This document shows positions 25,991 through 32,974 of a stretch of DNA of 64,000 nucleotides, one piece after another. The stretch covers positions 2,950,501 to 3,014,500 of the forward strand of contig NZ_LT828648.1 of assembly GCF_900169565.1 (NCBI RefSeq), read 5' to 3'. The notes beneath the pieces were generated by a model, which had not been told where the DNA came from, searched no databases, and saw nothing but the letters and a program-made list of their open reading frames with translations. A program made the translations under genes and the position numbers. Numbering within the stretch: the first letter of the stretch is position 1; each line of letters starts with the position of its first letter. This stretch comes from Nitrospira japonica. Its GTDB lineage: Bacteria > Nitrospirota > Nitrospiria > Nitrospirales > Nitrospiraceae.

Positions 25991-26506
25991 TCAGGAAACG
26001 GGCGAGAGAGTGGCCGGAGTTACCCGCCCTTGCGAGATGCGATAGGCACGAATGTCCGGACGGGCCTTATCTTGAAGGGAAATCAAGAGGTAGAGGGGAA
26101 GCGTGAGGTTGAGCCGCGCCCAGTTCTCTTCCCAGTCGTCGGCGATCTTGATGTCCGTGACGGAGGGACGCGCGGGATCATGGGGATGAGAATGATAGAC
26201 GACCTGAAGCGTCAGGCCGCTGTTTCGGATGTCCTTGACGGCCTGGAACATCTCCCGCGCGTCCATAATGAAGGCGATCTCGGCGCGTTCCTCGGGAGAA
26301 AGCCTGGACAAGTGTTGAATCTTGGCTTCGTCGAAGGCCGCGGCATCGGCGGCGCCTTCGAGGCTGACCACGTTCTTGATGCGATACACGCGACTGACGG
26401 TCTGGCCCGTCCCCGCGAGAAATCCGCAGCACTCGTAGGGATCCAGCGTCCGTGCATGCTCGACGAGTTCGTCGAGGACCGACTGGGGAATAATCAGATC
26501 TGGCAC
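25991..26506 (-). CDS. JAMM/MPN+ metalloprotease (Mec/HcyD-like)
   Basis: 171 aa. It has the JAMM zinc motif HSHPHDPARPSVTD (HxHP-x8-D form) and an upstream Glu-rich helix (PYECCGFLAG). Enzymes of this kind hydrolyse the bond after the C-terminal Gly of ubiquitin-like sulfur carriers: Mec+ frees cysteine from CysO-Cys, and HcyD trims HcyS. It is the last gene of the sulfur-carrier locus, 37 bp after a MoeB-like gene. Two ThiS/MoaD-like carriers in the same locus are the obvious substrates, especially the GGGC-tailed one at 31013-31213. Confidence 0.88.
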   Translation of the reverse strand: MPDLIIPQSVLDELVEHARTLDPYECCGFLAGTGQTVSRVYRIKNVVSLEGAADAAAFDEAKIQHLSRLSPEERAEIAFIMDAREMFQAVKDIRNSGLTLQVVYHSHPHDPARPSVTDIKIADDWEENWARLNLTLPLYLLISLQDKARPDIRAYRISQGRVTPATLSPVS

Positions 26507-26543: not shown

Positions 26544-27347
26544 TCAGATCGTACACGTGACCGTGTAATCGGTGCTCAGATCGGTAATGGAGGGGGTGGG
26601 GCCGCAGAGGCGGCAGGCCGGATCCTTGGGACGTCCGACTTTGCGGAATTTCATGTCCAGCGCGTCATAGATCAACAGGCGGTCGGCAATGGTTTCGCCG
26701 ATGCCGAGGATTTCCTTGATCGCTTCGGAGGCTTGAAGCACGCCCATGGTGCCGGCCAGGACCCCCAACACACCGGCTTCCTGACAATTCGGAACCAATC
26801 CGGCCGGGGGCGGTTCGGGATAGAGACAGCGGTAGCACGGATAGCCGGCATGCGGCTTGATCGTCGTCAGTTGGCCTTCGAAACGGAACATGCTGGCGGA
26901 GATCAACGTTCGCTTGGCGAAAAAGCAGGCGTCGTTCACCAGGAAACGAGTCGCGAAGTTATCCGACCCGTCCAGCACGATATCGTATTCCTTGATGAGC
27001 GGCAGGATGTTGTCGGCGTCCACAAGCTGATGATAGGTCTTGATCGTAATTTCCGGGTTGATCGCCGCAAGCGTGTTCCGGCCTGATTCCACCTTGGGCT
27101 GCCCGAGACTGGCGGTGGAATGAAGAATCTGCCTCTGAAGGTTGGAGAGATCGACCACGTCGCCGTCCACCAGCCCGATCGTGCCGATTCCCGCGGCGGC
27201 CAGGTAGAGCGCCGCCGGCGAGCCCAGGCCTCCGGCTCCGATCAGCAGCACCTTGGCGCTGTTGAGTTTGAGCTGCCCTTTTCCGCCGACTTCCTGAAGG
27301 ATGATGTGCCGGCTGTAGCGTTGAACCTGCTGCTCGGTAAGTTCCAT
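26544..27347 (-). CDS. MoeB/ThiF-family adenylyltransferase (E1-like), copy 1
   Basis: 267 aa. It adenylates the C-terminal Gly of a small ubiquitin-like carrier before sulfur transfer. The nucleotide-binding loop is IGAGGLGSPAA (about 36-46), followed by NLQRQ, DGSDNF and two CxxC zinc pairs (CYRC and CRLC). No C-terminal rhodanese domain is present. A close paralogue lies at 29206-30018. With two carriers in the locus, each E1 may serve its own, or both may be shared. Confidence 0.92.
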   Translation of the reverse strand: MELTEQQVQRYSRHIILQEVGGKGQLKLNSAKVLLIGAGGLGSPAALYLAAAGIGTIGLVDGDVVDLSNLQRQILHSTASLGQPKVESGRNTLAAINPEITIKTYHQLVDADNILPLIKEYDIVLDGSDNFATRFLVNDACFFAKRTLISASMFRFEGQLTTIKPHAGYPCYRCLYPEPPPAGLVPNCQEAGVLGVLAGTMGVLQASEAIKEILGIGETIADRLLIYDALDMKFRKVGRPKDPACRLCGPTPSITDLSTDYTVTCTI

Positions 27348-27419: not shown

Positions 27420-27659
27420 TTATTCGACGACGTTCAACTCGATCGGATCGACGACGACACCTTTCTTGCGGAGCCCTTCCACCGCGCGCTCGATCTCGGC
27501 GGTCTCGCCGGTCAGTTCCAGGTCCATCCAGCCGGTCGTTTCGCGGACGTCGGCGCGCCGGACGTTGGTCACGACCTGATACTCACGGCCGATCTGATAA
27601 ATGACGGGTTCCTTGATTTTCTCTTCCGGAAAACGGATGTGAAATCGCATGTTGGACAT
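27420..27659 (-). CDS. NIL-domain protein
   Basis: 79 aa, a single NIL domain (ferredoxin-like beta-alpha-beta; it contains RETTGWMDLELTGETAEIERA). NIL domains occur on methionine ABC transporters and on proteins of alternative homocysteine synthesis. Its position 2 bp after the MoaD-like carrier gene and before the E1-like gene ties it to sulfur amino-acid metabolism. No DUF39 partner, its usual companion in methanogens, is visible in the window. Confidence 0.85.
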   Translation of the reverse strand: MSNMRFHIRFPEEKIKEPVIYQIGREYQVVTNVRRADVRETTGWMDLELTGETAEIERAVEGLRKKGVVVDPIELNVVE

Positions 27660-27661
27660 GG

Positions 27662-27934
27662 TCAGCCTCCCGCAATGGCGGGCACGATGGACACTTCGTC
27701 GCCGTCATTCAACGATGTCTCTTTTCCTTTGAGGAACCGGATATCCTCTTCGTTGACGTAAATATTGACGAACCGCCGTAGTTCGCCGGTTTCATCGCAC
27801 AGCCGGTCCTTCAGACCCGGATGGGCCTGGTTCAACGTGTCGATCATGGCCGCGATGTCGGCGGCCTGGGCCTCGACCTCGCTCTTGCCTTTCGTCAACG
27901 GACGGAGGGGAGTCGGAATCCGAACCTTAATCAT
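27662..27934 (-). CDS. MoaD/ThiS-like sulfur-carrier protein ending in GG
   Basis: 90 aa, beta-grasp fold, with C-terminus VSIVPAIAGG, a mature Gly-Gly end ready for adenylation and thiocarboxylation. This MoaD-like group includes CysO. Its ATG overlaps the stop of thrC (ATGA), and the NIL gene follows 2 bp later. It most likely donates sulfide, as a protein thiocarboxylate, to the cysteine synthase or a homocysteine-forming enzyme rather than to molybdopterin, as no moa genes are near. Confidence 0.9.
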   Translation of the reverse strand: MIKVRIPTPLRPLTKGKSEVEAQAADIAAMIDTLNQAHPGLKDRLCDETGELRRFVNIYVNEEDIRFLKGKETSLNDGDEVSIVPAIAGG

Positions 27935-29178
27935 GCATCACCGCCATTTTTTCCCATCTTGAATGTTTTTTCAAAGGCCACCAAACTCGGAGAAATCCGG
28001 ACCGGACGGCCTACGGCGTCGATCACGGCTTCCTGGGTCTTGAGACCGTTGCCGGTAATATAGGCGACCGTCACGTCGGACTTCTTGATCGTGCCCTGCT
28101 TGACGAGCTTCTTCAGGACCCCGATGGTCACGCCGCCCGCCGTCTCGGCGAATATGCCTTCGGTCTGGGCCAGCAGCTTGATACCGTCCACGACTTCTTC
28201 GTCGGACACCATGTCCATGGCGCCCTTGCTTTCCGCCGTCGCCTTCAAGGCGTAATAGCCGTCGGCGGGATTGCCGATCGCCAGCGACTTGGCGATGGTC
28301 TTGGGTTTCACCGGCTTGAAGAAGTCCCGACCGTCCTTGAACGCCGTCGAGATCGGCGAGCAGCCCTCTGCTTGGGCCCCATTGACCCTGGTCCGGACCT
28401 CATCGATCAGCCCGATGGCCTTCATCTCATGGAGGCCTTTCCAAATCTTGGTCAGGAGTGAACCCGAAGCCATGGGGATGACGACCTGATCCGGCGTACG
28501 CCAACCGAGCTGTTCGACCGTTTCGAATGCCAGCGTTTTCGACCCCTCCGCGTAATAGGGGCGGATGTTGATGTTGACGAAGGCCCAGCCGTGCTCGCCG
28601 GCGATTTCACTGCACAGGCGGTTCACGTCGTCGTAGTTGCCTTCGATCTCCACCACGTTGGGTTTGTAGATCAAGTTGCCGAGCACCTTGGCCGCTTCCA
28701 AATCCCCGGGGATGAACACGTAGCAGCGCATCCCGGCCGAGGCCGCGTGGGCCGCCACCGAGTTGGCGAGATTGCCGGTCGAGGCGCAGGCGACGGTTTC
28801 GAAACCCAGTTCGCGCGCGCGCGTCAACGCGACCGCGACGACACGATCCTTGAACGACAGGGTGGGGTGATTCACGGTGTCGTTCTTGATGTACAGCTCG
28901 TCGAGGCCGAGATACGCTCCGAGGTTCTTGGCCCGAACCAGCGGCGTGAAGCCTGCGTGCGGGCCGAGGAACGCCGGGCCTTCCACCGGCAGCAGATCGG
29001 CATAGCGCCACATGCTGCGCGGTCCCGCTTCGATCTTTTGCCGCGAAATGGTTTTCTTGATCTCGTCGTAGTTGTATTTCACTTCGAGCGGACCGAAGCA
29101 CATTTCGCAGACGTGGATCGCCTTGGTCGGATATTCCTTCCCGCACTCGCGACACGTCAACGCTTTCATCTTGGCCAT
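27931..29178 (-). CDS. thrC: Threonine synthase
   Basis: 415 aa PLP enzyme of fold type II, converting O-phosphohomoserine to threonine. It has an N-terminal zinc-ribbon (CRECGKEY, CEMCFGP) typical of one thrC class, a PLP-lysine in HPTLSFKDR, and a phosphate loop ACASTGNLANS. Its place inside a sulfur-carrier locus is notable: O-phosphohomoserine is also a possible acceptor for homocysteine synthesis, so a PLP enzyme using thiocarboxylate sulfur cannot be excluded. Orthodox threonine synthesis is the default reading. Confidence 0.92.
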   Translation of the reverse strand: MAKMKALTCRECGKEYPTKAIHVCEMCFGPLEVKYNYDEIKKTISRQKIEAGPRSMWRYADLLPVEGPAFLGPHAGFTPLVRAKNLGAYLGLDELYIKNDTVNHPTLSFKDRVVAVALTRARELGFETVACASTGNLANSVAAHAASAGMRCYVFIPGDLEAAKVLGNLIYKPNVVEIEGNYDDVNRLCSEIAGEHGWAFVNINIRPYYAEGSKTLAFETVEQLGWRTPDQVVIPMASGSLLTKIWKGLHEMKAIGLIDEVRTRVNGAQAEGCSPISTAFKDGRDFFKPVKPKTIAKSLAIGNPADGYYALKATAESKGAMDMVSDEEVVDGIKLLAQTEGIFAETAGGVTIGVLKKLVKQGTIKKSDVTVAYITGNGLKTQEAVIDAVGRPVRISPSLVAFEKTFKMGKNGGDA

Positions 29179-29205: not shown

Positions 29206-30018
29206 TTACGGTCTGGACGCACAGCCCGCGAACGGATCTCCGTCGTCGAACAACTCCGTGATCGTCGGATGCTCACCGCACAAGGCGCACGCAGGATTGC
29301 GTTTGACCCTGATCTCCCTGAATTGCGTTTTGCGCGCATCATAGTCGAGCAGGCGATCGGTCAACGGACGGCCGATGCCGAGCACGAGCTTCAATGCCTC
29401 CGTCGCCTGAATCGTTCCGATCACGCCGGCCAACACGCCAATGACGCCGGCCTCCTGGCAGGAAGCCACCAGTCCGGCGGGAGGAGGACTCTTGAACACG
29501 CAACGATAGCAGGCGGATTTTCTCGGAATGATGGTCGTGACGCGTCCGTCGAATCGCAAGATCCCGCCGTGCACCAACGGCTTATCGGCGAAGAAACAGG
29601 CGTCGTTGATCAGGAACTTTGCCGTGAAATTGTCCACCCCGTCGATCACCACGTCGTAGTCCTGGAAAATCTTGATGGCATTGCCCGCCGTCAGCCGCTC
29701 TTCGTACATCGTCACGGCCACGTCGGGATTGAGCCCGTGGATCTTCTCCTTCCCGGACAGGACCTTGGGACGTCCGACGTCGGAGGTATGATGGAGGATC
29801 TGGCGTTGGAGATTTGTGATATCGACCACGTCGCTGTCGATCAAGCCCAGCGTGCCGACTCCCGCCGCCGCCAGGTACAGCGCCGCGGGGGATCCGAGGC
29901 CGCCGGCGCCCACCAGGAGAATCCGCGCCTTTGCGAGCTTCTTCTGCCCCTTCCCGCCGACCTCCGGCAGGAGAATATGCCGGCTGTATCGGTTGATTTG
30001 TTCTTCGGTGAATTCCAT
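29206..30018 (-). CDS. MoeB/ThiF-family adenylyltransferase (E1-like), copy 2
   Basis: 270 aa, closely similar to copy 1: VGAGGLGSPAALYLAAAG, NLQRQILHH, DGVDNFTAKF, and CYRC/CALC zinc pairs. It lies between the cysteine synthase and thrC, closest to the GGGC-tailed carrier, so it may activate that carrier. The duplication within one locus looks old, since the two differ over much of their length. Confidence 0.92.
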   Translation of the reverse strand: MEFTEEQINRYSRHILLPEVGGKGQKKLAKARILLVGAGGLGSPAALYLAAAGVGTLGLIDSDVVDITNLQRQILHHTSDVGRPKVLSGKEKIHGLNPDVAVTMYEERLTAGNAIKIFQDYDVVIDGVDNFTAKFLINDACFFADKPLVHGGILRFDGRVTTIIPRKSACYRCVFKSPPPAGLVASCQEAGVIGVLAGVIGTIQATEALKLVLGIGRPLTDRLLDYDARKTQFREIRVKRNPACALCGEHPTITELFDDGDPFAGCASRP

Positions 30019-30086: not shown

Positions 30087-31010
30087 TCAGATGTTAAAGT
30101 ATTTTTCGATGCTGATATAGCGCTCGCCCGTATCGCACAAAATCGTGACGACGTTTTTGCCCGGACCCAGCTCCTCTGCGATTTTTTGCGCGGCGAAGAC
30201 GTTGGCTCCGGAAGAAATCCCGACCAGGATTCCCTCTTGTTTGGAGATCCGCTTGGCCGTCTGGTAGGCCTCGTCGTCCGTCACGGTGACGATGCGGTCG
30301 ACCACCTTCTTGTTCAAGACCTTGGGAATGAATCCTGCGCCGATCCCTTGGATCTTGTGGGGACCCGGTTCCCCTCCGGAAAGCACAGGAGAGCCGGTCG
30401 GCTCCACGGCCACTATTTGAACGCTCGGATTGCGCTCCTTGAAGACTTCCCCGCAACCGGTAATCGTCCCTCCCGTACCCACGGCGGCCACAAATGCATC
30501 GATTTTCCCGTCCATCGCTTCGAGAATCTCCGGAGCCGTCGTCATACGGTGCATGGCCGGATTGGCCGGATTTGAAAACTGATCCGGCATAAAATACGAC
30601 GGGTTCTGGCTCAGCAAACTTTCAGCCTCGCGGATCGAACCTTTCATGCCTTCCCAGGCGGGAGTCAGCACGAGTTGAGCGCCATACGACGACAACAGGC
30701 TGGCGCGCTCCATGCTCATGCTTTCCGGCATGACCAGAATGAGCTTGTATCCGCGGACCGCGGAGATGAGGGCCAATCCGATGCCCGTATTGCCGCTCGT
30801 CGGCTCGACGATCGTCCCGCCTGGCTTGAGCTTGCCCTGTCGTTCCGCCTCGTTGATCATATTGAGGCAGATTCGATCCTTCACGCTGCCGCCCGGATTG
30901 AAAAACTCCACCTTGCCGTAGATCGTCGCGCAGCCGGGCTTGCTCAGCCGGTTGAGGCGCACGAGTGGGGTGTGCCCGATCGCTTCGGTGATCTCTTTGT
31001 GCAGGGGCAT
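30087..31010 (-). CDS. cysM: Cysteine synthase (CysK/CysM family)
   Basis: 307 aa PLP enzyme. The PLP-lysine is in GGSVKDRI, with TSGNTGIG substrate loop and GTGGTITG phosphate loop. ATG 31010 is chosen because a G-rich ribosome site, itself the coding end of the carrier gene, lies before it; GTG 31019 overlaps that gene. Linkage to a carrier, E1 and JAMM protease suggests it uses a protein thiocarboxylate as sulfur donor, like mycobacterial CysM, rather than free sulfide. I cannot tell CysM from CysK type by motif alone. Confidence 0.88.
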   Translation of the reverse strand: MPLHKEITEAIGHTPLVRLNRLSKPGCATIYGKVEFFNPGGSVKDRICLNMINEAERQGKLKPGGTIVEPTSGNTGIGLALISAVRGYKLILVMPESMSMERASLLSSYGAQLVLTPAWEGMKGSIREAESLLSQNPSYFMPDQFSNPANPAMHRMTTAPEILEAMDGKIDAFVAAVGTGGTITGCGEVFKERNPSVQIVAVEPTGSPVLSGGEPGPHKIQGIGAGFIPKVLNKKVVDRIVTVTDDEAYQTAKRISKQEGILVGISSGANVFAAQKIAEELGPGKNVVTILCDTGERYISIEKYFNI

Positions 31011-31012
31011 GA

Positions 31013-31213
31013 TCAGCACCCACCCCCCATGTAAAATAGGAATTCGAGCCGGTCGCCTTCCTTCAACGTCGTCGTGGCCAGTTGCGTCCGCTCCACCATG
31101 GTATCGTTGACTTCCACCGCCACCATCTGTGGCTCGATCTTCTTGGCTTGCAGCAGGTCCATGACTGTTCCAGCGGAGACCTCTTCAACTTTGCCGTTGA
31201 TCTTGACTTGCAT
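31013..31213 (-). CDS. ThiS-like sulfur carrier with encoded C-terminal GGGC
   Basis: 66 aa beta-grasp protein of the ThiS/MoaD group (MQVKINGKVEEV start, KEGDRLEFLFYM). The chain ends Gly-Gly-Gly-Cys, so the reactive Gly is blocked by one extra Cys. Carriers such as Wolinella HcyS also carry an extra residue that a JAMM protease removes; the JAMM gene of this locus lies at 25991-26506. The encoded tail resembles the CysO-Cys product of CysM. It is first in the operon, 2 bp before cysM. Confidence 0.88.
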   Translation of the reverse strand: MQVKINGKVEEVSAGTVMDLLQAKKIEPQMVAVEVNDTMVERTQLATTTLKEGDRLEFLFYMGGGC

Positions 31214-32312: not shown

Positions 32313-32974
32313 GTGGCCGAACTGATTGAAGAAACCGACGTGGCGGTGGTGGGAGCGGGCGGGGGAGGCGCCGTCCTCGCCCTCGCCATTGCCCAGAAGG
32401 GAATCCGCACCGTCGTTCTGGATCAGGCGCCCGGTCCGCCGCAAGGGCTGCGCGGTGAGATCTTGCACCGAACGGGCAGGCGGTGCTGGATAGGCTCGGT
32501 GTGCTGCAATCCTTGCCGGCCGTCGTCGGAGCCGACGGGACGTTTTCGAAGGTACGGGGAGCGTTGGCTCACGCGATGAACCCGCACGCCTCGCAGGGAC
32601 GCATGCAGGCCATGGTCGACGCCATGACCCTCTCCGACCTGATTCCCGACTGTCTCCGCGACGGCGACTGCTCGGCCGAACGTCTGCGTGCATGTGAAGC
32701 GGCTCGTCGCCCTCACGTGACGCTGCTGCAGCGGTTGGCCGATCAACAGGTTTTTTATTGGAACACCGGTAACCCCGGTGTCGCGTTTCTGCGGGATCGC
32801 GTATTCCGAACGTTGAACAGAAACGCGCGCTTGCGGTATCAAGTGCTTTCGACGACCGCCGGCTTGCAGATGACGGAGCCCTTCACGCTCCTCGACCGCG
32901 TCATTGCCGCCGGATTTCTGCCCGACTTTCGGGCGGGGCATCGCCCGGCCATTCCCCAAAACGGAGGATCATGA
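32313..32974 (+). pseudogene. Decayed FAD-dependent monooxygenase (PHBH/UbiH-like)
   Basis: The first frame (GTG 32313) has the FAD-binding VVGAGGGGAVLALAIAQKG. Around 32460 the sequence must shift one base to give the expected NGQAVLDRLGVLQSL. After VVGADGTFSKVRGA it jumps straight to the FAD-end motif HAMNPHASQGRM, so a large middle part (substrate domain and part of the GD motif) is missing. The C-terminal helices are intact. Frameshift plus internal deletion mean it is not functional. Family assignment is by the two FAD motifs. Confidence 0.78.

Follow-up and report, generated by a model that had tools for sequence, protein, structure and literature searches.

A sulfur carrier with an encoded residue after Gly-Gly-Gly in a Nitrospira japonica cysteine synthase operon: a probable pro-form with a variable tail

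Described carrier systems and the Nitrospira japonica locus

In the CysO and HcyS families of sulfur carrier proteins, an E1-like enzyme adenylates the terminal glycine, and the addition of sulfur yields a thiocarboxylate on which a PLP enzyme assembles the amino acid; a JAMM protease then releases this product. Protease trimming of a precursor is also required for ubiquitin and for many ubiquitin relatives. The HcyS-Ala carrier of Wolinella succinogenes, attributed to Krishnamoorthy and Begley in 2011, reportedly has an extra C-terminal residue that is removed by the JAMM protease HcyD. This system resembles the locus described here in its ThiS-like carrier with one extra residue, its E1 without a rhodanese domain and a JAMM protein that later frees the amino acid, and differs in that HcyS works with MetY to form homocysteine, whereas the N. 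japonica partner is a CysK-type synthase accompanied by thrC and a NIL-domain protein. A further difference is that the Nitrospirota tail is variable and can be an entire cysteine synthase. In the QbsE/QbsD system of thioquinolobactin synthesis, the carrier residues after Gly-Gly (Cys-Phe) are also said to be removed by a JAMM protein; this would be a direct precedent for a Cys right after Gly-Gly, but in a siderophore pathway with no cysteine synthase.

The CysO-CysM-Mec+ system of Mycobacterium tuberculosis is similar in gene content (carrier, cysteine synthase, E1 and JAMM protein), and its Mec+ hydrolyses CysO-Cys, an adduct (carrier-GG-Cys) with the same composition as the end encoded in N. 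japonica (PMC3227635). The thiocarboxylate of CysO is described on the last glycine of the GG motif. The M. tuberculosis E1 (MoeZR) has a rhodanese domain and the operon E1s of N. japonica do not; by profile scores the N. japonica synthase matches the CysK/O-acetylserine type better than CysM, the M. tuberculosis type. Ubiquitin-like carriers fused to a partner enzyme are known from the molybdopterin pathway, where the partner is MoaE: MoaX requires a cut after Gly-Gly, at Gly82 (PMC4326299), and DRJAMM of Deinococcus cleaves the MoaD-MoaE protein DR2607, leaving a C-terminal Gly (PMC8832034). Passages of Iyer et al. 2006 propose that JAB proteins free fused ThiS and MoaD and describe an operon type (4c) with the same gene association as here, namely ThiS, E1, JAB and cysteine synthase; in those passages the type 4c E1s have rhodanese domains, Nitrospira is unlisted, and there is no report of a carrier fused to cysteine synthase or of free tails at the C-terminus (PMC1779556).

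The window analyzed here is a stretch of 64,000 nucleotides from N. japonica (contig NZ_LT828648.1, positions 2,950,501 to 3,014,500), whose genome is a single contig of 4.08 Mb. The locus is a run of eight genes on the minus strand, carrier first, in the order carrier-cysK-moeB-thrC-CysO-like carrier-NIL-moeB-JAMM (Table 1). The carrier frame was translated as MQVKINGKVEEVSAGTVMDLLQAKKIEPQMVAVEVNDTMVERTQLATTTLKEGDRLEFLFYMGGGC followed by a stop, so the end FYMGGGC given in the initial annotation was confirmed, and the cysK ATG lies at 31010, right after the carrier TGA. In profile searches the carrier scored within the ThiS family (PF02597, 45.8 bits with a cut-off of 22.5; TIGR01683, 62.5 bits with a cut-off of 37.45). 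Both models stop at residue 65, which leaves the Cys outside the family model. The free Gly-Gly C-terminus of ThiS proteins is absent from the primary product, where GGG is followed by Cys, and would appear only after trimming. Sequencing error was ruled out as the source of the Cys because an independent sister genome (G005) encodes GGGC with the identical codon at the matching locus, in a carrier that is 88% identical. A second copy of the carrier in the N. japonica genome ends in GGGL and lies upstream of a second cysteine synthase.

The CysO-type gene set was found within this single locus, as was the HcyS-type combination of a residue after GGG in the primary product with a JAMM gene; the cysteine synthase and JAMM protein to which the initial annotation refers belong to the same operon. 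The partner of HcyS type was not found, the synthase being CysK and O-acetylhomoserine sulfhydrylase being absent among the identified operon proteins. The synthase scored 463 bits with TIGR01139 (cysK) and 288 bits with TIGR01138 (cysM), and its closest solved chains are cysteine synthases A/O-acetylserine sulfhydrylases, the nearest being 2EGU. Throughout the phylum, thrC is found in the sulfur-carrier operon adjoining the CysO-like carrier and the NIL protein.

Table 1. Coordinates of the carrier, its C-terminal codons and the operon genes within the window
Feature	Position	Strand	Basis
ThiS-family sulfur carrier, 66 aa, primary product ending FYMGGGC	31013..31213	-	Translation and profile match
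Gly-Gly-Gly codons (GGG GGT GGG), predicted mature C-terminus	31019..31027	-	No nonsynonymous change among the 118 relatives with a one-residue tail
Tail codon TGC (Cys) directly after the GGG motif, position unconserved	31016..31018	-	Survey of relatives
Carrier stop codon TGA	31013-31015	-	
Cysteine synthase, CysK type	30087..31010	-	TIGR01139 463 bits; in-frame fusion with carrier in 7 related genomes
E1-like MoeB/ThiF adenylyltransferase (1), without rhodanese domain	29206..30018	-	Profiles
Threonine synthase (thrC)	27931..29178	-	Profiles
Second carrier, MoaD/SAMP1-like (CysO-like), ending exactly in PAIAGG	27662..27934	-	Profiles; tailed in 46/122 relatives
NIL-domain protein	27420..27659	-	Profiles; in-frame fusion to CysO-like carrier in one relative (L102)
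E1-like MoeB/ThiF adenylyltransferase (2), without rhodanese domain	26544..27347	-	Profiles
JAMM/Prok-JAB metalloprotease, HSHP-x6-S-x2-D motif; candidate maturase and Cys-releasing enzyme	25991..26506	-	PF14464 72 bits

Tail identity and codon change across the phylum

The phylum set consisted of 149 distinct carrier plus CysK rows from Nitrospirota genomes. The position after GGG was occupied by Arg in 90 rows, a long tail in 24, Ala in 8, an in-frame fusion in 7, Gln in 5, Cys in 4, Leu in 3, Thr, Trp and Ser in 2 each, and Gly and Lys in 1 each, the lone Gly row (L079) being merely a fourth glycine. No tail-less carrier was present among the 149 rows; one tail-less fragment lay outside the set, in the close relative G004 (fragmented assembly, 81% complete, no JAMM found), where the carrier ends exactly in GGG. 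Arg was the family consensus, following the motif in 71 of 80 named genome contigs (the others had Leu, Cys and Gln in 2 each, Trp and Thr in 1 each, and one in-frame fusion). Six other genomes of the genus have the carrier, and their copies of this locus end in Cys, Arg, Arg, Arg, Thr and nothing (GGGC in G005, as in N. japonica; GGGR in G001, G002 and G003; GGGT in G006; the bare GGG of G004). The four Cys rows required three changes by parsimony on the tree, at least two of them on well-supported branches, giving at least two origins. Cys is a derived variant and Arg the consensus, and what is conserved is the presence of a tail rather than its identity. The extra residue noted in the initial annotation held across homologous carriers (149/149 rows), and the meaning attached to the Cys itself did not, since the Cys is not conserved among close relatives with the same locus. 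The nearest solved carrier structure (2K5P/3CWI), of a Geobacter protein, ends in FMGGG-K ahead of the tag, so an extra residue is probably not limited to Nitrospirota. A plasmid collection returned ThiS matches only, all below 60% identity, and the annotated ones were ordinary thiamine thiS.

Codon changes were counted on the tree for the 118 rows with a one-residue tail. At the tail codon there were 11 synonymous and 23 nonsynonymous events, close to the 1:2 expectation from CGG when transitions only are counted, and the three Gly codons had 19/0, 26/0 and 18/0 on the same tree; the Met before GGG was invariant. These counts show no purifying selection on the tail codon, with GGG fixed and the following residue free. 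The constraint ends sharply at GGG, the pattern of a recognition and cut site ahead of a segment that is thrown away. The near-universal tail, its free identity and the fixed GGG together support a pro-form, and do not support reading the Cys as a mimic of the adduct.

The carrier is probably made as an inactive pro-form, from which the tail would be removed, most likely by the operon JAMM protein, before a CysO-like cycle is entered; the cleavage, the part of the JAMM protein and the order of the cycle are all predicted. The mature end would be GGG, with whatever follows (Cys here) cut off, and trimming would expose the glycine carboxylate. A MoeB-type E1 would then adenylate the exposed glycine, sulfur addition would give the thiocarboxylate, CysK would build cysteine on the carrier from it, and the same JAMM protein would hydrolyse the carrier-Cys bond and so regenerate carrier-GGG. 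The tail would be free to drift because the JAMM protein would read the carrier and GGG and not the downstream residues. In N. japonica the newborn carrier and the carrier-Cys adduct would happen to be one molecule, by coincidence at a drifting position rather than by design. Several remarks of the initial annotation survive in this scheme: that the residue after GGG blocks the Gly that must be adenylated is supported, the chemical remark that Cys is the residue of the CysO-cycle adduct is right, and a pro-form needing maturation is the best reading of a residue or longer tail conserved after GGG across the phylum. The release of a Cys in the first turnover, also foreseen there, would amount to a minor side effect confined to a few species.

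A possible but not likely addition that is compatible with the pro-form reading is that the tail itself has a function, with its presence selected and its identity free, either as a zymogen cap delaying activation until the JAMM protein is present or as a block to cross-talk with the thiamine ThiF. The complete lack of tail-less forms in the set points this way when set against the operon's second, CysO-like carrier, which ends exactly in AGG in 76 of 122 loci, the other 46 having a variable tail, but the bare GGG of G004 argues against it, and tail-less forms may be scarce through mutational inertia: selection for any tail is at most suggested, since no stop codon lies one step from CGG, the commonest tail codon. 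A tail needed for cysK translation was not favored, as judged by inspection: in many relatives a GGAGGT-like site ahead of cysK is already formed by the Gly codons, and a fused protein requires no such site.

Candidate maturase and in-frame fusions

The operon JAMM protein has the JAMM/MPN+ metal site H-S-H-x7-S-x2-D (YHSHPHDPARPSVTD) with the upstream Glu in DPYECCGFLAG, and among solved structures it is related in sequence to 2KKS, 2KCQ and PfJAMM1. It was the only strong JAMM match in the N. japonica genome, which has one weak JAB match elsewhere. A JAMM gene lay downstream within the operon, closing it, in 101 of the 108 loci for which the available sequence reached 5.5 kb or more; the remaining seven include three fused loci, and the JAMM gene is elsewhere in those genomes. 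The motif HSH[PT]...PS..D was kept across loci, with a lone apparent failure (L116) in a stretch with an ambiguous base. The operon JAMM protein is the best candidate maturase, with cleavage predicted. Trimming of this kind draws direct support from DRJAMM acting on MoaD-MoaE (PMC8832034), from the cut that MoaX requires (PMC4326299) and from the proposal of Iyer et al. 2006 (PMC1779556).

Carrier and CysK were fused in frame in seven genomes (G056, G160, G017, G026, G007, G035 and G188; loci L064, L098, L109, L110, L111, L114 and L119), all seven of which have a strong JAMM match. In these proteins MGGG is kept and is followed by an unconserved linker of about 5-20 residues and a complete cysteine synthase; the Pfam ThiS and PALP domains were both confirmed in two of the seven. 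The fusion had at least three origins on the tree, and the fused form is common to four genera of one family (f10). In one case (L102, genome G137) the CysO-like carrier and the NIL-domain protein form an in-frame fusion, and thiamine ThiS was fused to ThiG in two genomes (G113 and G161), an architecture already known elsewhere according to passages of Iyer et al. 2006 (PMC1779556). In the literature searched, which covers few subscription journals, no report of Nitrospira pro-carriers or of carrier-cysteine synthase fusions was found, and within that scope the near-universal arbitrary tails and the repeated fusions are new.

A GGG inside a fusion can be freed by an endoprotease only, unless the fused protein works uncut. 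Removal of the tail by a housekeeping carboxypeptidase or another endoprotease, with the JAMM protein acting solely on the carrier-Cys adduct, is unlikely. Most tails are one residue, and a Cys, Arg or Ala could be removed by a carboxypeptidase; moreover, thiamine ThiS is tailed in four assemblies without a JAMM match (by 2 aa in G024, G082 and G124 and by 12 aa in G128). A site-specific endoprotease is nevertheless needed where the tail is 6 to 35 aa long or a whole enzyme, and gaps in the assembly or a recent loss could explain some of the four exceptions (the G082 assembly is 74% complete, and a relative of G124 in the same genus bears a JAMM gene).

The other reading of the fusions, that the tail stays and that carrier-CysK functions with no thiocarboxylate chemistry at the carrier terminus, for instance with a regulatory or scaffolding ubiquitin-like domain, is very unlikely. 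The stable fusions across the four genera of family f10 would suit it, but GGG is perfect in every row, fusions included, where a non-catalytic domain would not need it, and two E1 enzymes and the JAMM protein remain in the operon.

It is extremely improbable that the encoded Cys was itself selected, as a pre-formed carrier-Cys intermediate by which the JAMM protein would recognise the newborn protein as its usual product-bound substrate: the encoded end is chemically identical to the carrier-Cys adduct that the CysO pathway forms once the S-to-N shift has taken place (PMC3227635) and Cys arose more than once at the tail position, but the survey, tree and codon counts given above, with Cys one or two steps away from Arg codons, refute it as a general rule.

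Other tailed carriers and additional observations

Besides the GGGL paralog, two further N. japonica carriers have residues after the glycines. The thiamine ThiS (G000:C1:48401-48598) has GGG followed by 10 aa, and a MoaD-MoaE fusion (L002:1492-2184, PF02597 and PF02391) has an internal GG, after which it too would need to be cut. Across the phylum, thiamine ThiS (L122-L151 and L165-L204) often has 1-21 unconserved residues after GGG. It was tailed (1-21 aa) or fused in 56 of the 70 genomes with a strong JAMM match and in 4 of the 13 without one, the other 9 of which end exactly in GGG (Fisher p 8e-4), an association that lost significance with phylogenetically independent pairs and is therefore a lead and not proof; JAMM presence was accordingly rejected as a predictor of ThiS tails.

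It is plausible, though we hold it tentatively and a little short of probable, that one JAMM protein is a general maturase of several Nitrospirota carriers (thiamine ThiS, the cysteine carriers and MoaD-MoaE), and that their C-termini are thereby unconstrained, so that tails drift, lengthen and repeatedly become in-frame fusions with the partner (carrier-CysK, ThiS-ThiG and CysO-NIL). Were this so, thiamine synthesis would depend on a JAMM protein, contrary to Iyer et al. 2006, where the thiamine pathway is said to lack JAB proteins (PMC1779556).

On the pro-form reading, a bacterial sulfur carrier would follow the precursor-trimming logic of ubiquitin almost invariably throughout a phylum; the cut site would be retained without exception, and whatever comes after it would be free to vary, even to the point of a fused whole enzyme. 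The tails (Cys, Arg, Ala, Gln, Trp, 2-35 aa and CysK) would offer a cheap natural substrate series for measuring what the JAMM protein reads, and residues after Gly-Gly should not serve as pathway clues.

Elsewhere in the window, two overlapping frames at 32313-32974 resemble, by eye, the opening and closing parts of a single FAD-dependent oxidoreductase, which looks decayed with a central deletion. Two records titled 'uncultured Nitrosospira sp.' (L229 and L239; isolates NOB2 and CMX) have Nitrospira-type loci and fall inside Nitrospira on the tree, and their titles look misnamed.
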